A DNA stretch of 23,319 bases from a virus. The notes beneath the pieces are model-generated. The model saw only the letters and a list, made by a program, of their open reading frames with translations. It was not told where the DNA came from and made no database searches. How positions within the stretch are numbered: position 1 is the stretch's first letter; each line of letters begins with the position of its first letter. The stretch is taken from positions 1 to 23,319 of IMG/VR virus record IMGVR_UViG_3300033145_000442. One strand, given 5' to 3'. This document shows positions 3,005-23,319 of the stretch, in pieces. Made by a program: the position numbers and the translations under genes.

Positions 3005-3096
3005 TGGCTGAGCCGCTTCTAATCTGGATAAGTATGGCAGCCGTGTTGTACTTGATTCTCCACGTATGGCGGTTGATCACGCGGAAGAAAGGATGA
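3004..3096 (+). CDS. 30-residue single-span membrane peptide
   Basis: The peptide runs MAEPLLIWISMAAVLYLILH then VWRLITRKKG. A hydrophobic span (residues 5-22) is followed by five positive charges, so a single membrane helix with the basic tail in the cytoplasm is likely. It is coupled on both sides: its ATG overlaps the upstream stop (TGATG) and its stop overlaps the protease start (ATGA). Tight coupling to a membrane-anchored protease suggests a joint envelope function. A holin-like or small membrane-partner role is a guess; no family is recognised. Confidence 0.6.
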   Translation: MAEPLLIWISMAAVLYLILHVWRLITRKKG

Positions 3097-3911
3097 ACAT
3101 GCGTAATATCCTACTCCTAATCGGCATATTTTTACTCGTAACGACCGGAATTATCGGAATGGTTGACGAACCCATCAACATTGTGCAGCTTGACAATCGC
3201 CTCCCCAACCTGATTGAGGACGTGCGATCTAGCGTCGTACACATCAGCAAGCTCAACGACAGTCAAAGTTCCGGGTGCCTCATATCGGCCGATGGGATCT
3301 TGTTTACCGCAAAGCATGTCAGTGACGGCAAGCCGGGTGATTACATCGTCATGCTTGACGACGGCCGTGAGTTCAAGGTCAAGCCCGGCTACGTGTTAGA
3401 GGACAGAGAGAATGACATCACCTTTATGCAACTCGACCTTAACGGGACAGAGCCTAATCTCCCGTACGCGACACTGGCTACGGAGGATGTCCTCAGGGTG
3501 GGCCAGCAAGTGGTTGTCATGGGGAGCCCTCTGGGGAGTGGCAACTTTAACTCTGTGTCTGTAGGTATCCTCTCGGCTCTCAGCAGAGACTTGTACAACC
3601 GTAAAGGCTGGGAGCAAGAGCAACGCTACAACTGGCACGTGATGCTACAGTCGACATCCCCGGCGTTCCCGGGTAACAGCGGCGGGCCCGTGTTCAACAT
3701 GGGCAGTGAGGTGATCGGTGTTTTGGTGGCCGGGCAGGCTGAGACGCTCAATTTCTCGGTGCCAGTCGCACGTTTTGTTGATACTATCGACGCTGTGCGC
3801 ACTCATTTCGCACTGTGCCGATTCAATGTGGTTAAGGCAGAGAAGCCCACGTATGATGTAGCCTACGAGATGCAGCGGCTGGTGGATACTATCGATGGAC
3901 TAAACAGATAA
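3093..3911 (+). CDS. Membrane-tethered or secreted trypsin-like serine protease (S1C/HtrA type)
   Basis: This 272-residue protein has the full chymotrypsin-fold triad: His75 in FTAKHV, Asp108 in ENDITFM and Ser196 in PGNSGGPV, in the right order and spacing for the HtrA/DegP catalytic domain. The length leaves no room for a PDZ domain; the tail after about residue 235 is short and helical. Residues 4-23 (RNILLLIGIFLLVTTGIIG) form a hydrophobic signal/anchor, so the catalytic domain should face the periplasm or outside. The start at 3093 overlaps the membrane-peptide stop (ATGA); the ATG at 3099, with AAAGGA at better spacing, is an alternative. Phage proteases for head maturation are normally cytoplasmic, so the export signal makes an envelope role (superinfection exclusion, lysis, receptor trimming) more likely. 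Confidence 0.85.
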   Translation: MNMRNILLLIGIFLLVTTGIIGMVDEPINIVQLDNRLPNLIEDVRSSVVHISKLNDSQSSGCLISADGILFTAKHVSDGKPGDYIVMLDDGREFKVKPGYVLEDRENDITFMQLDLNGTEPNLPYATLATEDVLRVGQQVVVMGSPLGSGNFNSVSVGILSALSRDLYNRKGWEQEQRYNWHVMLQSTSPAFPGNSGGPVFNMGSEVIGVLVAGQAETLNFSVPVARFVDTIDAVRTHFALCRFNVVKAEKPTYDVAYEMQRLVDTIDGLNR

Positions 3912-3935
3912 CAGTTTAGCAAGGGGAACAAAACC

Positions 3936-4286
3936 ATGAAGTGCATGAACGGAAACATCGTTATCGTACGAGGCAAGAACCAGAGTGAGCGCAAGGGCAT
4001 TATCCTGCCCGAGGCCGCTCAAGAGGAGTCCAACGTTGGTGAGATCATCTGTATTGATGAGACCATTATGTCACTGGACGTCGGCGACACCGTCCTCGTG
4101 CCGCTCCTTACCATGATGCGTATCCGGCAGACTGGTATGTGTGACCTGATAGTCGACGGCAAGCCTGCGCTGGTCATCAAGGAAGAGGACATCGCGGTAG
4201 TGTGGCCGAAGGGGGGAACACATGCTCCACCTACAGACGATCAGGCCGTAGAGTGGGACAACGGCGATGACCCGAGGATGAACTGA
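3936..4286 (+). CDS. GroES/Cpn10-like co-chaperonin
   Basis: This 116-residue protein matches the co-chaperonin layout: an N-terminal strand NGNIVIVRGK, a flexible Lys/Glu/Ser loop ending in the hydrophobic tripeptide region GIIL (residues 21-24) that in GroES docks on GroEL, then VGEIICID, GDTVLVP and a C-terminal strand ALVIKEEDIAVV corresponding to the EEVLIM..DILAIV end of GroES. A roughly 25-residue acidic tail (after PKGGTHAPP) is extra. Phage co-chaperonins such as T4 gp31 replace GroES so that capsid protein fits the host GroEL cavity. Its place in the virion operon supports a capsid-folding role. AAGGGGAAC precedes the start. The stop overlaps the next start (TGATG). Confidence 0.8.
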   Translation: MKCMNGNIVIVRGKNQSERKGIILPEAAQEESNVGEIICIDETIMSLDVGDTVLVPLLTMMRIRQTGMCDLIVDGKPALVIKEEDIAVVWPKGGTHAPPTDDQAVEWDNGDDPRMN

Positions 4287-7912: not shown

Positions 7913-9715
7913 ATGTCCCGATCACTGACCGCACAGAAACTTAGTGAGAGTGCCCTGGAAGGGTTCAAGCGGTTTGAGCTATTCCGCAAGGCCCGGGCGT
8001 ATGCCGTTAAGGAGTATATTGGCACGTATATGGCCCAGCAACACGGCCTTACTGGTGAGCGACCGATCAATCTGACGTTTCTCGCCATTCGCGCGCTGGT
8101 GCCAAACCTCGTGCAGCAGAATGGTATGACAAAGGTACTCACCAAGATTCTACAGCAGCGCGATTATGCCGAGAAGATGGGCCTTGCCCTCAGTGACCTG
8201 CATGAAAAGCTGAAAATGCACCGGATATTGCGTGCAGCCCTAGTGGACATGGCCCTCGGTGGTCTGGCCGTATTTAAGACGTCGCTTGACTACACCAACA
8301 CCATTGTCGAGGACCTTAACGTCGACCCGATGCAAATCTACACGCAGTTAATCAGCCTTGACGACGTGACAGCCGATCCGATATGCCGTGAGTTCAGCAA
8401 GGCGAATTTCATTGGGCACCGCGTACACATTGAGCGGGCCCGGCTTATGAAGATGGACGAGTGGGACAAGGACCTGATCCGGCGTCTCCCGCGTGCGGGC
8501 ACAAAACAGGACAGTAACGAGCGGGCTGAGATGCTCACGCAGGAAGACCCGCAGTCCATGATATTCAACGCATGGCAGGACTATGTCAATATCGTAGAAA
8601 TATGGGTACCAGAGGCCGAATCTGTTTGCTACATTCCCGATCCCGAGGAAGCTGTGATGAAGGACTTCCTCAACGTGCAGGAGTACTACGGTCCACCGGA
8701 CGGCCCGTATACGTTCGGCTCCATCACGCAGCCCGTACCCGATAATCCGTTTCCGGTTGCGCCAGTAGGTGTGTGGCGCGATCTCGGGGACATGGCAAAT
8801 CGTTTGTTCAAGAAGGGTATGGACCAGGCTGACCGCCAGAAGAACGTAGGGCTTTACAGCCCCGCAAACTATGACGCGGCCATGGCCGTACAGGACGCTA
8901 TTGATGGCGAATGGGTGGCCAGCGAGGACCCAAATGGGGTCAACATCGTGTCCGTAGAGGGCGCAGATGAGAGTACCCTGCAGATGACGCAGAATCTGTA
9001 CGGCTGGTTTAACCTTGTAGCCGGTAATCCGGATATGATGAGCGGGTCTGCGATCAATTCCGACAAGGCTACTGGTCAACAGATCCTGCAGCAGAACGCA
9101 TCTGTCAGCACCGGTGACATGCGCGACATGATCTATGATATGACCGGCGAGATAGCCGGCAAGCAGGCGTGGTTCCTGCATAACGATGACTTACTGTTCC
9201 AGCCGGGACAGCCGGGGATTCCGCTGATCAAACGGATGCCCACCGGGGAGGAGCAACAGCTGTACTTGACCCCGGATGACAAGACCGGCAGTATCGAGAC
9301 GCTTGGATTTGAGATTGTGCAGCGGTCCATGAGCAAGATGGACCCGATAGCCCGGGAGCAAGCCGTGTCATACTTTACCCTAAAGGTATTACCACAGGCG
9401 TTTTCGGCGCTGGGTCTCGCTATGCAGGCCGGGCAGGAGTTCAATATTTCCACGTATCTGTCCAATGTGGCCGAGGAAATGGGCATCGCCGCTATCGCCG
9501 ACGGTATCTGGACGGACCCCGGATTCCGGGCTCGTATGCAGTGGCACGCTGATATGCTGGGTTCGCCGAAGAAAAGTGGTGACGGGGGCGGAACGCAAAA
9601 CGGCGGTTTGCCCGTAGGCGGTACCCCGCCGGGCACGCCCACTGAACAATTTAACCAAAATGCCCAGTCCGTGGCAGCTGTTGGGCAGCAGAACTTGAAC
9701 CGTGGAGGTATGTAA
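7913..9715 (+). CDS. Portal protein (podovirus head-tail connector)
   Basis: This 600-residue protein lies directly after the terminase region and before the scaffold and capsid genes. Its size and composition suit a podovirus-type portal: a helical N-terminus (KLSESALEGFKRFELFRKAR), helical segments around 80-115 (LSDLHEKLKMHRILRAALVD), a mixed central domain with ISLDDVTADP and IGHRVHIERARL, and a Gly/Pro/Gln-rich tail. Twelve copies would form the ring through which DNA enters. I find no nuclease or protease motif. AGAGG seven bases upstream serves as ribosome-binding site; the start is confirmed by the conserved duplicate of its first 17 codons. Confidence rests on gene order and size as much as on motifs. 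Confidence 0.85.
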   Translation: MSRSLTAQKLSESALEGFKRFELFRKARAYAVKEYIGTYMAQQHGLTGERPINLTFLAIRALVPNLVQQNGMTKVLTKILQQRDYAEKMGLALSDLHEKLKMHRILRAALVDMALGGLAVFKTSLDYTNTIVEDLNVDPMQIYTQLISLDDVTADPICREFSKANFIGHRVHIERARLMKMDEWDKDLIRRLPRAGTKQDSNERAEMLTQEDPQSMIFNAWQDYVNIVEIWVPEAESVCYIPDPEEAVMKDFLNVQEYYGPPDGPYTFGSITQPVPDNPFPVAPVGVWRDLGDMANRLFKKGMDQADRQKNVGLYSPANYDAAMAVQDAIDGEWVASEDPNGVNIVSVEGADESTLQMTQNLYGWFNLVAGNPDMMSGSAINSDKATGQQILQQNASVSTGDMRDMIYDMTGEIAGKQAWFLHNDDLLFQPGQPGIPLIKRMPTGEEQQLYLTPDDKTGSIETLGFEIVQRSMSKMDPIAREQAVSYFTLKVLPQAFSALGLAMQAGQEFNISTYLSNVAEEMGIAAIADGIWTDPGFRARMQWHADMLGSPKKSGDGGGTQNGGLPVGGTPPGTPTEQFNQNAQSVAAVGQQNLNRGGM

Positions 9716-9993
9716 TGAAGGCGTTCTTTAGTACACCCAAAAGCATAAAAGCGAGGTCGAAGGCGAAGGCCAAGGCGAAGGCCAAGGCGAATGAACGCGG
9801 CAAGCCCCGTGACATTCTGGAAAAGTATGAGGTAAAGCGACGACTCAAGAAGAAATATCCACAGATGTACAAGGAGGGCTGGGGCGAGCCCAGAAAGAAA
9901 GATCGTACCAGCAGCACAGTTAGGGGATTACGTGCCGCCGGTATCTCGTCAGATGAAATGCCAACTGATGCAGAGAGACGTAAAGGGAAATAA
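9715..9993 (+). CDS. Highly basic protein with Lys-Ala repeats
   Basis: This 92-residue protein opens MKAFFSTPKSIKARSKAKAK and continues Lys-Ala to about residue 25, then KPRDILEKYEVKRRLKKKYP and a C-terminal RRKGK. It is extremely basic and should bind nucleic acid or the acidic scaffold. The Lys-Ala run is encoded by a 12-bp tandem DNA repeat and resembles histone-H1-like tails. Start and stop overlap both neighbours by one base (TAATG). Lying between portal and scaffold it may be a minor head protein, but that is inference. Confidence 0.75.
   Translation: MKAFFSTPKSIKARSKAKAKAKAKANERGKPRDILEKYEVKRRLKKKYPQMYKEGWGEPRKKDRTSSTVRGLRAAGISSDEMPTDAERRKGK
9760..9791 (+). repeat. 12-bp tandem repeat (AAGGCGAAGGCC), about 2.7 units
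   Basis: AAGGCGAAGGCC is repeated head to tail inside the basic-protein gene and encodes Lys-Ala-Lys-Ala. Repeats of four codons keep the frame, so slippage would only lengthen or shorten the tail. Confidence 0.8.
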
Positions 9994-11645: not shown

Positions 11646-11662
11646 CCCTATTGGAGGCTAGT

Positions 11663-12775
11663 ATGAGTAGTTACACCTATGATGATCTGGCGGGCTTGGT
11701 TGCCACTGTTCACACCAAGTACCCCAAAAACGAACTTACGGTTACCTGGGACGACAACCGTTTCGAGGCCGCCCGTATGTTCAATCAGGACTCTATCAAG
11801 AAACAGGGCGGGACTACGATTACCGGTAAAGCAATGTTGAGCCAAACCGGAACCGCTCGCTACGTCGGCTACTACGAAGTCGATGAGCTTTCTCAGGGTG
11901 AGAAGATCGTTGAGTTCACGATGCCATGGTGTCGTATGACCGCGAACTGGTCCTGGGACGAATTCGAGATTCTGCAGAACAAGTCGGACCCCGAGGGCTT
12001 CATTGACCTTGCAAAGGTCAAGGAGACGCAGGCCCTGTGGAACCTGGCTAAACTGTTCGAGGACGCCCTGTGGCAGGCCCCGACCAGTGCGACTGATGAC
12101 AAGTATCCCCGCGGTATCCCGTACTACATCCGAATGCTGGATGCGGATGCCACTGACGGTGGAGCTTTCTCCGGTCAGACAATCCGTTACCGAAATGGAA
12201 CGACCGGCACTGTGTGTTCGGGCATTGATGCCGCTACGTATCCGACATGGAAGAACTGGGCTGATACCTACACAGCGGTTGACAATGACCTGATCAAGAA
12301 ATTGCGTACTGCATTCCTGTATCAGGAATTCAAGGCTCCGCTGGGTGCCACGTCATTTGAGGTCCGTAAGTCTGCGAAGTCCCGGATTTACACGGGCCGC
12401 CCGAATAAGGCTAAGATGTTCGATTATCTCGATGCCAAGGATGACGTTCATACGACCAAGGAGGCTTTCGGCCGTATGGTCGTTACCGAAGGTACGGACA
12501 TGATGATCAACGGCGTCGACGTTATTGGTATCCAGAGCCTGGATGCTGCAACTGACATTGTCACCGGTGGCAGCACTGATCCGTGGTACTTTGTCAATCT
12601 GGGGGTTTTCCAGCCGGTCGTGTATTCGGGCTATTGGATGCACACAATGGGACCGATCCACGGTGGGACGAAGCAGCATACGGTGTGGACGATGTTCAAA
12701 GACGGCGCGCACAATATCTGGTGTGATGACCCCAGGAGTGCCGGTTTTGTAATGCACAAGGCCATCACCGCTTAA
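11663..12775 (+). CDS. Major capsid protein
   Basis: This 370-residue protein begins MSSYTYDDLAGLVATVHTKY. It is the expected size and place for the shell subunit, directly after the scaffold. Composition (Asp/Gly/Thr/Trp-rich, mixed alpha/beta, long helix around KVKETQALWNLAKLFEDALW) fits an HK97-type fold, but no short diagnostic motif can be named. The frame extends upstream to a TTG at 11651, yet the ATG at 11663 follows TTGGAGG with five bases and is the start. There is no N-terminal delta domain, in line with a separate scaffold gene. Several hundred copies would form the head, possibly folded with the phage co-chaperonin. Confidence 0.88.
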   Translation: MSSYTYDDLAGLVATVHTKYPKNELTVTWDDNRFEAARMFNQDSIKKQGGTTITGKAMLSQTGTARYVGYYEVDELSQGEKIVEFTMPWCRMTANWSWDEFEILQNKSDPEGFIDLAKVKETQALWNLAKLFEDALWQAPTSATDDKYPRGIPYYIRMLDADATDGGAFSGQTIRYRNGTTGTVCSGIDAATYPTWKNWADTYTAVDNDLIKKLRTAFLYQEFKAPLGATSFEVRKSAKSRIYTGRPNKAKMFDYLDAKDDVHTTKEAFGRMVVTEGTDMMINGVDVIGIQSLDAATDIVTGGSTDPWYFVNLGVFQPVVYSGYWMHTMGPIHGGTKQHTVWTMFKDGAHNIWCDDPRSAGFVMHKAITA

Positions 12776-19021: not shown

Positions 19022-19701
19022 TGGCATTCACTATAGATTTTGCTGGCGTGCAGTCCGATAGCGAAGCCCAGAAGATGATAAGATCCGTTTCCCCTCAGTG
19101 GAAACGGAATGAGGCCAAAAAGACATGGGCCCGTGTTAAGGGTTATGTACTTGGGCAGGCAAAAAGTACGACATCTACGCCGTCTGTTGCTAAAACCAGC
19201 GGTACACCGGCTAGCGTTGCGGAGCCGTTCAAGCAAGCCCTCGACACCTTATCGGGTGCCGGTAGCGACGTAGAGAAGATGTACCAGGCCGGTAAGCGTA
19301 GGGCCATGAGCAACATTGCTATGCAGTCTGTTAGCGCTGGCATGGCGAACACGCTCAACATGCCCGCTGCGGAGCTTGCATACGAAGGTGAGGTGCGGCC
19401 GGGCACGAATGTAGCCGTGGCTGGCCAGAAGGCAAACGTGCTACAGAACCTCGGGCAGACCGCAGCTGGCATATATGGAACGCAGGTAGGGGCGGAGACG
19501 TCGCGATATGGCATTGATGTTGGTAGCCGGACCTCTTTACAGACCGCACAAATGGGGGCGGGTGCGGCAGCTACTTCCGCTGGTCTAAACTTTGCTTCAA
19601 ACCGGGCCAATCAGGCGCTGCAGAAGTACATTGCTGACCTTAAGCACAGCAGTAGCGGCGCGTTGAGCCAGGCTTCATTGCCCGGGGCACCCAGGGTATG
19701 A
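19021..19701 (+). CDS. Ala/Gly/Ser-rich virion protein, possible ejection protein
   Basis: This 226-residue protein begins MAFTIDFAGVQSDSEAQKMI. From about residue 70 the sequence is helical and Ala/Gly-rich: AGSDVEKMYQAGKRRAMSNI, then AAGIYGTQVGAETSRYGIDV and AGLNFASNRANQALQKYIAD. Such sequences, placed after the nozzle gene, are found in small ejection or internal proteins of short-tailed phages. No catalytic motif is seen. The ATG shares its A with the nozzle stop, and its TGA overlaps the next ATG (ATGA). Confidence 0.6.
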   Translation: MAFTIDFAGVQSDSEAQKMIRSVSPQWKRNEAKKTWARVKGYVLGQAKSTTSTPSVAKTSGTPASVAEPFKQALDTLSGAGSDVEKMYQAGKRRAMSNIAMQSVSAGMANTLNMPAAELAYEGEVRPGTNVAVAGQKANVLQNLGQTAAGIYGTQVGAETSRYGIDVGSRTSLQTAQMGAGAAATSAGLNFASNRANQALQKYIADLKHSSSGALSQASLPGAPRV

Positions 19702-21755
19702 GTGATCTGAACAACACATTTAACATCCCTACGCCCGGATCTCCGCGATTCGAGAGTGATGTGATACGTGCGCTGGGCAAGATACGCGACTCGCTGGGCG
19801 CGGGGTCCAATCCGTCCTTCGGAAGTATCGAGTTAGAGAATGCCACAGCCAGCCGACTCGTGGCCACTGACGCTGGCAAGAAACTGTCTAGCTCGGATCT
19901 ATTCGCGTGGGTTACCGGAACAGCTAACCGCGTAACCGCAGCTGATGACGGTGATGGTACAGTCACGCTGTCCGGCCCGCAAGACATACATATTGGGGCC
20001 AGCCCTACGTTTGCGGGCATGACAATCGACAGTTCTCCTGGAACCCTGCTGACCGTTCAAAGCGCCGGAGCCACAAATTCTACTATTAACATGCAGTGTG
20101 AGCGGTATCTTTTACACAACTATACAAGCTATAATACTGGAGCAGGCCCCGCCCCGGAGCTTGCAATTCGTAAGGCCAGAGGGACTATTGCTTCCCCCGC
20201 TGCTGTTATTGATAATGACTCACTTGGCTATTGGATATTCCGGGCACACGACGGAACTGCCTTTAGAAATGTTGCTGGTATTCAGGCCCGGGTTGATGGT
20301 GCTGTAACGACCGATGATGTTCCTGGTGAATTGATATTCTCTACCAGACAGAGTGGGGATGCAAACTTTAGGTCAGTTGGCGGATTTGCCTCGGGTGGCG
20401 GATTTTGGGCCGGGTACGGTATTAGTGATTCCACCATGACCGTCGCCGGATTTGTAAAGAATGATGCAGAAGGTCTTTTGAGCGGGGGAAACTCCATTGC
20501 TGTGGGTGATCTGCCTGCACACGCCGATGAACACGAAGTCGGGGGCGGCGATCTGGTAGACCATGACGCCCTCACGAACTTCGTATTGGATGAACATGTA
20601 GCCCACTCTGGTATTTCGGTTCTGGCGGGCATAAATCTTACGGGTGGCGGAACAATTGATGGTAGCGTGACGCTGAACGTTGACCCGGTGTCAGCCTCCG
20701 ACTGGGACGCGGCCCATACTCACATTACCAGTGATGGCACCGACCATACCTACATCGACCAGGATGTGCGGACTACGGCCAGCCCTACGCTGGCTGGACT
20801 GACTGTTGATGCTGACCCTGGTGTTCTGGCAACCTTCCAATCGACCGGGGATGCAGTCAATTCTTCCGTTCTATTTAGAGCCGAACGATATCTCACGTTT
20901 GATCTAGCGGCCTATCGAACTTCTGGGGCATACGCAGGACTCCAATTCAAAAGGGCACGTGGCACTATAGCTTCACCGTTACCTGTAGCGCATAATGACG
21001 AACTAGGGACAATAACTTTCTGGGGATATGATTCATCTGCTTTTGTTATTGGGGCGTCAATCATTGGAGTAACCAGAGGAACCCCGGCCGTTGGGAGTAT
21101 CCCCACTGATTTGCGGTTCTATACTACAGAGGATGGTGGATCATATTCACCAAAAATGGCACTGGTGGGGAATGGGCGTTTGGGTATCGGGGTGTTAGCT
21201 CCCAACGAGAGACTTGAGGTATCCGGCAAAATCCGTACAAATGCGGGCTTCAACCTGAATGGCGCAGATGGGATTTCCAGTTCTGCTGCGGGTGTGATTA
21301 CTGCTTCTACTGTTGCGGGCGGTATTCTCACGTCAGTTACAAAGAACGATTGGCTGGACCAAGATGTAAAGACAACGGCAAGTCCAGTCTTTGCTGGATT
21401 GACAGTGGATACGGATACCCTATATGTGGACCCCGTGAACAACCGTGTTGGTGTAGGAACGGCATCCCCACAACGCGTATTTCACGTCGCTGCCCCCGTC
21501 CTTCCTTACATTCACCTAACAAATGATCTTTCAGGGCATGGGGGAAGTAACGGTCTAACGATAGGGATACTGGGGGAGGGGTATAATTATTCCTACATAA
21601 GGGTCCGGGAAAATCACCCGCTTAAATTTTACACCAACAACACACAGTATGTTACCTTGCTAGCAAACGGAAATTTAGGAATTGCAACCGGAAGTCCTGC
21701 AGCTAAACTTGATACAAAGGGTGACGCAAGATTTGGAGACTCAGTCACAAAGTGA
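19698..21755 (+). CDS. Tail appendage (fibre/spike) protein, truncated by a 31-bp duplication
   Basis: This 685-residue protein is a modular receptor-binding appendage. After a virion-binding N-terminus (NTFNIPTPGSPRFESDVIRA) there are short 'ASPTFAGMTID' spacers (three copies near residues 97, 359 and 560). Two homologous domains of about 130 residues contain RARGTIASP (residues 158-166 and 418-426). Near 200 to 305 lies DALTNFVLDEHVAHSGISVL followed by GINLTGGGTIDGSVTLNVD, a motif common in phage tail fibres. Late segments NGRLGIGVLAPNERLEVSG and NNRVGVGTASPQRVFHVAAP are typical fibre-shaft repeats. It stops at TGA 21753-21755, created by the duplication; without it the frame would run on to 22347 (872 residues). 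Confidence 0.75.
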   Translation: MSDLNNTFNIPTPGSPRFESDVIRALGKIRDSLGAGSNPSFGSIELENATASRLVATDAGKKLSSSDLFAWVTGTANRVTAADDGDGTVTLSGPQDIHIGASPTFAGMTIDSSPGTLLTVQSAGATNSTINMQCERYLLHNYTSYNTGAGPAPELAIRKARGTIASPAAVIDNDSLGYWIFRAHDGTAFRNVAGIQARVDGAVTTDDVPGELIFSTRQSGDANFRSVGGFASGGGFWAGYGISDSTMTVAGFVKNDAEGLLSGGNSIAVGDLPAHADEHEVGGGDLVDHDALTNFVLDEHVAHSGISVLAGINLTGGGTIDGSVTLNVDPVSASDWDAAHTHITSDGTDHTYIDQDVRTTASPTLAGLTVDADPGVLATFQSTGDAVNSSVLFRAERYLTFDLAAYRTSGAYAGLQFKRARGTIASPLPVAHNDELGTITFWGYDSSAFVIGASIIGVTRGTPAVGSIPTDLRFYTTEDGGSYSPKMALVGNGRLGIGVLAPNERLEVSGKIRTNAGFNLNGADGISSSAAGVITASTVAGGILTSVTKNDWLDQDVKTTASPVFAGLTVDTDTLYVDPVNNRVGVGTASPQRVFHVAAPVLPYIHLTNDLSGHGGSNGLTIGILGEGYNYSYIRVRENHPLKFYTNNTQYVTLLANGNLGIATGSPAAKLDTKGDARFGDSVTK

Positions 21756-21782
21756 CGCAAGATTTGGAGACTCAGTCACAAA
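21721..21782 (+). repeat. 31-bp perfect tandem duplication in tail appendage gene
   Basis: The unit GTGACGCAAGATTTGGAGAC plus TCAGTCACAAA occurs perfectly twice, at 21721-21751 and 21752-21782. Since 31 is not a multiple of three the second copy shifts the reading frame and brings in a TGA. Each unit begins GTGAC and ends GTCACAAA, so the junction can also form a small GTCAC-AAA-GTGAC hairpin. Confidence 0.95.
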
Positions 21783-22347
21783 TTACGCTGAGTTCAAGTC
21801 CAATGGAGAATTAGAGTTACACGGGACCGCGAGAACGACGAACGCCATATGGGTTGATGCCGGCGGAATAAAAGCAGCAGGAGCCAAACCAGCCACCCTC
21901 GTTGCACACGGAGTACTAGAAACTGCTGCTTGGCAATTCGCAGATGAGGCGCTTGAAGCTAACCAACGATCTGTATCGTGGTCTACTCGTATCCCGGAAA
22001 GGATGGATCGGTCTGTGGCTCCGATTGTTAGTATAGCGTGGAGCGCTGACGGGGTGAGTCCGGGTGATTGTAAATGGCAACTGGAATATCTATGGATTTC
22101 GCCGGGAGAATCAACCACAGCCGCTGCACAAGAAACCCTTACGGCTGTAAGTAGCGCCGCAGCAACGGCCAATGGGATAGTAATTACAGAGATAACAGGA
22201 ATTGATGTACCATCTGGAACAGACGCGTGTTTGCACTGCCGGTTAACCCGCTTGTCAGCCGATGTGAGCGATACAATATCGGATACGGTAGAAATGCACG
22301 GTGTTTGTTCCGGGTTCACAATGAATAAATTAGGAAAGGCCACATAA
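21754..22347 (+). pseudogene. Out-of-frame C-terminal part of tail appendage protein
   Basis: These 197 codons follow on from the appendage gene in the other frame: DARFGDSVTNYAEFKSNGEL, then a domain with ETAAWQFADEALEANQRSVS, RIPERMDRSVAPIVSIAWSA and CKWQLEYLWISPGES, ending CSGFTMNKLGKAT. I see no ribosome-binding site or start codon near the junction; the open frame only reaches back to a TTG at 21682 inside the fibre shaft, without Shine-Dalgarno. So this is best read as the original C-terminus, now separated by the 31-bp duplication. Its well-preserved sequence suggests the break is recent, variable within the population, or bypassed. The stop overlaps the next gene start (TAATG). Confidence 0.75.
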
Positions 22348-23319
22348 TGGCATTCACATTTTCTGATCCCAAGATACAACCGTATGGACTGCCTGTTGCT
22401 TCCCTACCAGCAGCCGGTGAACTGGGCGGAGCCGCCTTTGAAATGGCTGATGCACAGGGCAACATAACACGCGCGGGGACGATGGTTCAGAACCCCCAGA
22501 CCGGGGAACTTGAGGCTAACTACCCGGATGAACTTCTGGGTCGCACTCAGGACCAACCCGGGGCATCTGCCCTTAGCCCAACGGATCTTGGTATCGACGC
22601 ACCTACATCTGACCCTGTAAAGATCATAGAGTGGCAAGGCCAGCAGAAATTGAGCCAGCTGTCCGCATTCGATAAACAGATTGCGGATATTAAGGTTCCC
22701 ATACAGCATAAGCTCGATACATCATACAAACAACTCATGGTCGATGTTAATGCCGTTCGTAATTCTGGCATGGACCAGCAGCAGCAGAACCAACGTATCA
22801 ATCAATTGAGCGCTAACTACCAGAAGAAGTGGATAAGCATCAAGAGTGAGATCGAACCGCAAACGCAGGCCCTGCAACAACAGAAGGCCGCTGTCAGGCA
22901 GGAGATCATCCTCAACCAGGCCCTGCAGTTGAAAGAGATCCAAACCTATGCACAAATGGAAGAGGATGGCCTTATCGATGCGGCCACCTCCATGTCGCGG
23001 CAGATCATGGTTGCAGGGTATGATGTACCAGTGTCCGAGTTTAGACCGCCGAAAGTCCAAACGCCCCATGAGACTGTACAAACGATGCGGAGCACACTCA
23101 AGACACTCAAAGAGCGACTGGACAGTTTTAAGACAGACATGTACAACCCGAAAGGGTGGGGGAAAAGCCAGAGAAAGCGACCGGCCTTATATGTAAAGAG
23201 CCCCGGATCTACGGGCTCCCTTGATACCGACTGGGAACTGGCTGATCCACACCAACAGAGTGTATATGAAAACCTGCTAACCCAATACATCGGTGCTCAG
23301 GAAATTCTTGATGCAGCCG
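22347..23319 (+). CDS. Gln-rich helical virion protein, 5' part only
   Basis: The frame starts MAFTFSDPKIQPYGLPVASL and is open for 324 codons to the window end. Residues 95 to 215 are Gln-rich and helical with coiled-coil character (QGQQKLSQLSAFDKQIADIK, QQNQRINQLSANYQKKWISI, QALQQQKAAVRQEIILNQAL). After that comes a Pro/Lys stretch (PKGWGKSQRKRP). Long Gln/Ala-rich helical proteins downstream of tail genes in short-tailed phages are usually internal virion or ejection proteins. The true length and any C-terminal enzyme domain are unknown. AGGAAAGG lies eight bases before the ATG, which shares its A with the previous stop. Confidence 0.7.
   Translation, partial: MAFTFSDPKIQPYGLPVASLPAAGELGGAAFEMADAQGNITRAGTMVQNPQTGELEANYPDELLGRTQDQPGASALSPTDLGIDAPTSDPVKIIEWQGQQKLSQLSAFDKQIADIKVPIQHKLDTSYKQLMVDVNAVRNSGMDQQQQNQRINQLSANYQKKWISIKSEIEPQTQALQQQKAAVRQEIILNQALQLKEIQTYAQMEEDGLIDAATSMSRQIMVAGYDVPVSEFRPPKVQTPHETVQTMRSTLKTLKERLDSFKTDMYNPKGWGKSQRKRPALYVKSPGSTGSLDTDWELADPHQQSVYENLLTQYIGAQEILDAA

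Follow-up and report, generated by a model that had tools for sequence, protein, structure and literature searches.

The tail fibre gene of an uncultured phage is interrupted, at the hinge between its shaft and its tip, by a perfect tandem duplication of 31 bp. The observation is best explained, in our view and with moderate confidence, by a recent duplication that truncates the fibre and that is known from one assembled record. The window analysed here is that entire record, a metagenomic phage contig of 23,319 bases in IMG/VR. The duplication breaks the reading frame, the hinge and the tip domain beyond the break are conserved, and intact counterparts are found in relatives. The following course of events can be envisaged: an exact tandem duplication of 31 bp would arise in the shaft-tip hinge; reading into the second unit would hit a TGA, giving a 685-residue fibre that ends at the hinge and carries no tip; and this tipless fibre would be tolerated, either the tip being accessory or the sequenced variant being a minority or losing form. 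We infer that the duplication is present in the real genome and that the truncated product is made. What counts against this scenario is that tip loss is possibly lethal, in which case the break could not become fixed. The features concerned are:

19698-21755, plus strand: truncated tail-fibre ORF of 685 aa, with an N-terminal anchor module and repeated shaft modules (profile match)
21714-21718, plus strand: ACAAA upstream of the first unit, a motif that also ends each unit (21747-21751 and 21778-21782)
21721-21751, plus strand: first copy of the unit, GTGACGCAAGATTTGGAGACTCAGTCACAAA (sequence comparison)
21752-21782, plus strand: second copy, identical to the first, with the period-31 identity ending at both outer edges
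21756-22347, plus strand: remaining 3' part, orphaned in the +1 frame, with no well-placed start (frame reading)
21784-22344, plus strand: C-terminal tip domain, a beta-sandwich of 187 aa (homologues and predicted structure)
22347-23318, plus strand: following gene, still open where the contig ends; its homologue lies directly 3' of the single fibre gene in the relatives L007, L008 and L009

The initial annotation of this DNA had claimed a perfect duplication that shifts the frame, creates a TGA and ends the reading frame at residue 685, and all of this is borne out: the units at 21721-21751 and 21752-21782 are identical and, since 31 = 3x10+1, one unit alone moves the frame by one, the stop lying at 21753-21755. 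The array 21721-21782 comprises exactly 2.0 copies, with the flanking base on either side breaking the period, and is the sole array with a period above 12 in the whole window. A scan of 620 kb of related contigs for exact arrays (at periods of 15-150) revealed none besides it that ends at 2.0 copies: the rest extend beyond two full copies and are mostly simple variable-number repeats. A hairpin in the unit (GTGAC/GTCAC) was considered and discarded: with one unit it is no stronger than in shuffled sequences and with two it is weak (z of -0.6 and -1.9, respectively). Elsewhere in the window, at 9758-9791, a short 6/12-bp repeat array, AAGGCGAAGGCC, opens a small gene (9715-9993).

That the affected gene encodes a tail appendage, as had been proposed, is confirmed by profile matches of the shaft to PHROG tail fiber families (phrog_9942, E 6.8e-30; phrog_18345, E 2.1e-14) and by its place among virion structural genes, with a portal-like gene (7913-9715) and a head-protein-like gene (11651-12775) upstream; a Pfam search with pieces of the fibre returned no match. 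Still further upstream, preceding the structural genes, a trypsin-like protease gene (3066-3911) is followed by a gene for a Cpn10-like (GroES-like) chaperonin (3936-4286). The anchor module occupies approximately residues 1-110, and within the shaft, between 19980 and 21420, a module of about 240 residues is present in two or more diverged copies (34% identity), the product of an older internal duplication that kept the frame. The relatives L006-L009 have the neighbouring genes in common with the window (64-87% identity at the protein level); their fibres agree with that of the window at 77-87% over the first 90-118 residues, except for L008, at 48% over 233 residues. In L007, L008 and L009, one uninterrupted fibre gene (437, 480 and 564 aa, respectively) is flanked by homologues of the window neighbours, with differing tips. 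L006 had to be set aside as an instance of a break, its 154-aa N-terminal fibre ORF being followed by a separate ORF of at least 738 aa with its own ATG, which is a different arrangement. A search with the next gene (22347-23318) matched no stretch, and annotated phages gave no match at either the DNA or the protein level.

The orphaned domain is best read, on the strength of its structural matches to sandwiches, collagen-like and phage proteins, as the tip of the fibre. Its predicted beta-sandwich has a mean pLDDT of 91; the matches to solved structures are weak and go to carbohydrate-binding modules and other sandwiches, the best PDB match being CBM36 (E 4.4e-4, TM 0.41 by query, 13% identity), which reflects only a common beta-sandwich, and among predicted viral proteins the similarity is to segments of collagen-like and phage proteins (with TM by query reaching 0.76). 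The domain is present in about 36 other loci, and among genome contigs no more than three relatives turned up, each in a metagenome-assembled genome. Presumably, the tip binds a receptor; it probably serves as an adhesin that is accessory or can be exchanged, and whose loss is tolerated as in the stf gene of lambda.

In these loci, the domain is preceded by shafts as short as a few residues and as long as 1,127, which have no sequence relationship to one another (mean DNA identity 28%). The hinge between shaft and tip is conserved (e.g., GDGGTTNYTEIKSDGEINLHGTAR), and the duplication in the window sits in its first half. Among the carriers that can be read, most, L029 included, encode the domain behind a continuous frame, fused to a shaft; each intact relative has a single copy of the corresponding hinge, and a search of the relatives for two or more units at this place found none, nor any other copy number. 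Given that the domain is fused in frame in most relatives, the break in the window should be recent, tolerated or artefactual. The contrary arrangement, with the domain as an independent gene, which was to tell against a break, is seen in a small number of relatives (L070, L034, L042, L074, L077 and L078), where a short gene has its own ATG, but not in the large majority nor in the syntenic group. One instance is L070 (3989-4561), in which the tip domain stands nearly alone in a 190-aa gene, AAGAAGGTGAAAAATG, with its own ATG and a Shine-Dalgarno sequence.

The hinge was also considered as a general site of DNA recombination. This idea was abandoned, as identity at four-fold sites is only slightly higher in the hinge than in the domain (0.41 vs 0.35), and the all-pair DNA identity is 61% in the hinge vs 58% in the domain; because the hinge is barely above the domain, the claim of a recombination site is confined to one pair of relatives. 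In this pair, L039 and L048, the 54 bp of hinge DNA (4001-4054 in each) are identical and the tip domains beyond are only 62% identical, as expected from tip exchange.

The age of the break can be judged from the state of the tail, which had been described as well preserved. Indeed, it has conserved columns and a confidently predicted beta-sandwich: the tip matches 20 of the 21 columns that are invariant across the other 24 sequences. Compared with L029, the tip shows pN of 0.21 and pS of 0.82, values that give no date for the break because most of this divergence arose while the gene was intact. In a simulation of neutral decay at 0.15 substitutions per site, the tail stayed free of stops in only 5% of cases; the rarity of a stop-free tail under such decay implies that the break is young or artefactual, so the proposal of a recent event finds support in this form.

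As to the origin of the duplication, the end homology provided by ACAAA is displaced by 2 bases, and there is no flanking homology at the period of the array itself, a state that an untrimmed join of overlapping contig ends would equally leave. End homology of this kind accompanies 1.4% of random 31-bp units in the fibre gene, and the motif at the edges suggests slippage or template switching.

The window is one of four broken genes among about 37 carriers of the domain. The other three are frame-broken upstream of the tip family, each by a different lesion. In L039, the break (3890-3945) lies just before the hinge and involves a 44-bp deletion relative to L048, which has the identical hinge; in L044, it is found at an A-run (1930-1960), some 360 bases ahead of the domain; and in L079, it falls within a repeat-rich shaft (3200-3400), about 200 codons before the hinge. 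Two further candidates for split genes, L081 and L046, each proved to be two ordinary genes. A set of 124 distinct genes, each visible in full next to a homologue, showed no comparable break (0/124), L081 having been the one candidate, so that Fisher's test gives p ~0.003 for 4/38 vs 0/124 in a post hoc comparison in which L044 and L079 were spotted by eye; with the homologue-checked cases only (2/38 vs 0/124), p is 0.054, which is marginal. The pattern fits a dispensable adhesin tip that has been lost more than once, by analogy with lambda stf, and part of the excess could stem from assembly errors in repeat-rich fibres. A bolder proposal, that breaks of the frame directly in front of this tip family recur as a selected contingency, with the tip repeatedly lost and regained through junction indels and here through a reversible 31-bp duplication, appears to us doubtful.

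The most serious competitor of a real duplication is an error of assembly, by which two contig ends overlapping by 31 bp were joined untrimmed, or a chimeric read was incorporated, the phage itself having one unit and an intact fibre. Such an origin is possible, albeit clearly less probable than a genuine event. An array of 2.0 copies with identity ending at the outer edges is just what untrimmed joining gives, only one hinge is present in every intact relative, and the two-unit form occurs in no other record, no further record having been retrieved when viral_contigs was searched for exact matches to the unit with its downstream flank; the one-unit sequence is equally absent from viral_contigs. 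On the other side, end homology such as that of ACAAA would seldom arise by chance (1.4%), other relatives are broken nearby by lesions of different kinds, and the 620 kb contain no second exact two-copy array. Moreover, 62 bp are spanned by reads of ordinary length, so a false join should lose against the reads.

Phase variation, in which the population would switch between fibres with and without a tip by gaining or losing a unit, seems unlikely. Direct repeats of 31 bp can recombine or slip, one unit changing the frame, and switching in phages typically targets fibre tips. However, there are two copies only, and the repeat, as no relative has a hinge with two or more units, does not form a conserved device; the broken relatives carry different, mostly non-repeat lesions, and genes for recombinases or invertases are absent among the window proteins scanned. 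A survey of the literature on tandem-repeat phase-variable phage fibres and on false duplications in metagenomes turned up nothing directly on point.

It is very improbable that the gene has been functionally split, the tip now being made as an independent subunit. The few relatives in which a short gene with an ATG of its own carries the domain, such as L070 with its 190-aa gene, could be taken as a precedent, but the syntenic relatives are not divided in such a manner and the window has no well-placed start before the domain. The earlier view that the tail lacks a start of its own thus holds for well-placed starts and is to be corrected in that in-frame starts do exist upstream (TTG 21682, GTG 21721 and TTG 21733); no well-spaced Shine-Dalgarno sequence was found at any of the three, and the earliest in-frame ATG, GTG or TTG past the stop is ATG 22003, within the tip domain.

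Least probable of all is translational bypass, whether by a +1 frameshift at AAG-TGA-C or by internal initiation: the +1 frame is open through the overlap 21682-21755, and the domain is in the +1 frame in 3/4 of the broken genes, but the P-site codon is AAG, as unfavourable as had been stated, rather than CUU, and re-pairing from AAG to AGT is poor; the nearest purine-rich stretch, GGAG at 21735-21738, is some 14 bases off the stop; Shine-Dalgarno sequences are badly spaced at the in-frame starts; and the broken relatives have no sequence signal in common, L079 even shifting the opposite way, so the suggested +1 recoding finds no support, for want of a slippery site, of a stimulator at the RF2 spacing and of any signal shared with these relatives.

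Taken together, the data, if the truncation is real, add a further natural case in which an indel breaks the frame of a fibre gene and costs it the adhesin tip, among phages without a cultured relative in the collections searched, and the apparent excess of broken genes before this tip family could, once examined with reads, serve as a measure of how often natural phages shed adhesin tips. If the duplication is an assembly error, it is only a warning on fibre annotations in metagenomic contigs.

Three known systems invite comparison. With the programmed +1 frameshift of RF2, the window shares a TGA-C stop and the continuation of the gene in the +1 frame; unlike RF2, it has no CUU codon in the P-site, no correctly spaced Shine-Dalgarno-like stimulator and no conservation, the site AAG-TGA-C being absent from relatives. 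In T4-like phages, the distal tail-fibre adhesins are exchanged as modules (Tetart et al. 1998, as cited in PMC3797505) and conserved motifs flank the exchangeable tip modules, much as the hinge does here in L039 and L048; the protein families are other ones, however, and exchange at a hinge of the type seen in the window is deduced from few pairs only. The closest likeness is to the stf gene of laboratory lambda (lambda PaPa), where a frameshift has produced two truncated frames, ORF401 and ORF314 (PMC9659904), and where phages with inactivated side tail fibres reportedly grow better in a soft-agar overlay (PMC3945230). As in stf, a frame break has left a long N-terminal ORF and a preserved orphan C-terminal ORF, and relatives possess one continuous gene (L007, L008, L009 and most of the tip carriers); the differences are that the lesion here is a 31-bp duplication, that the phage is uncultured and that there is no detectable sequence kinship to stf. 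Most likely, then, the break is either a recent mutation with loss of function, of a kind long known from laboratory lambda, or an assembly error, and involves no new mechanism.
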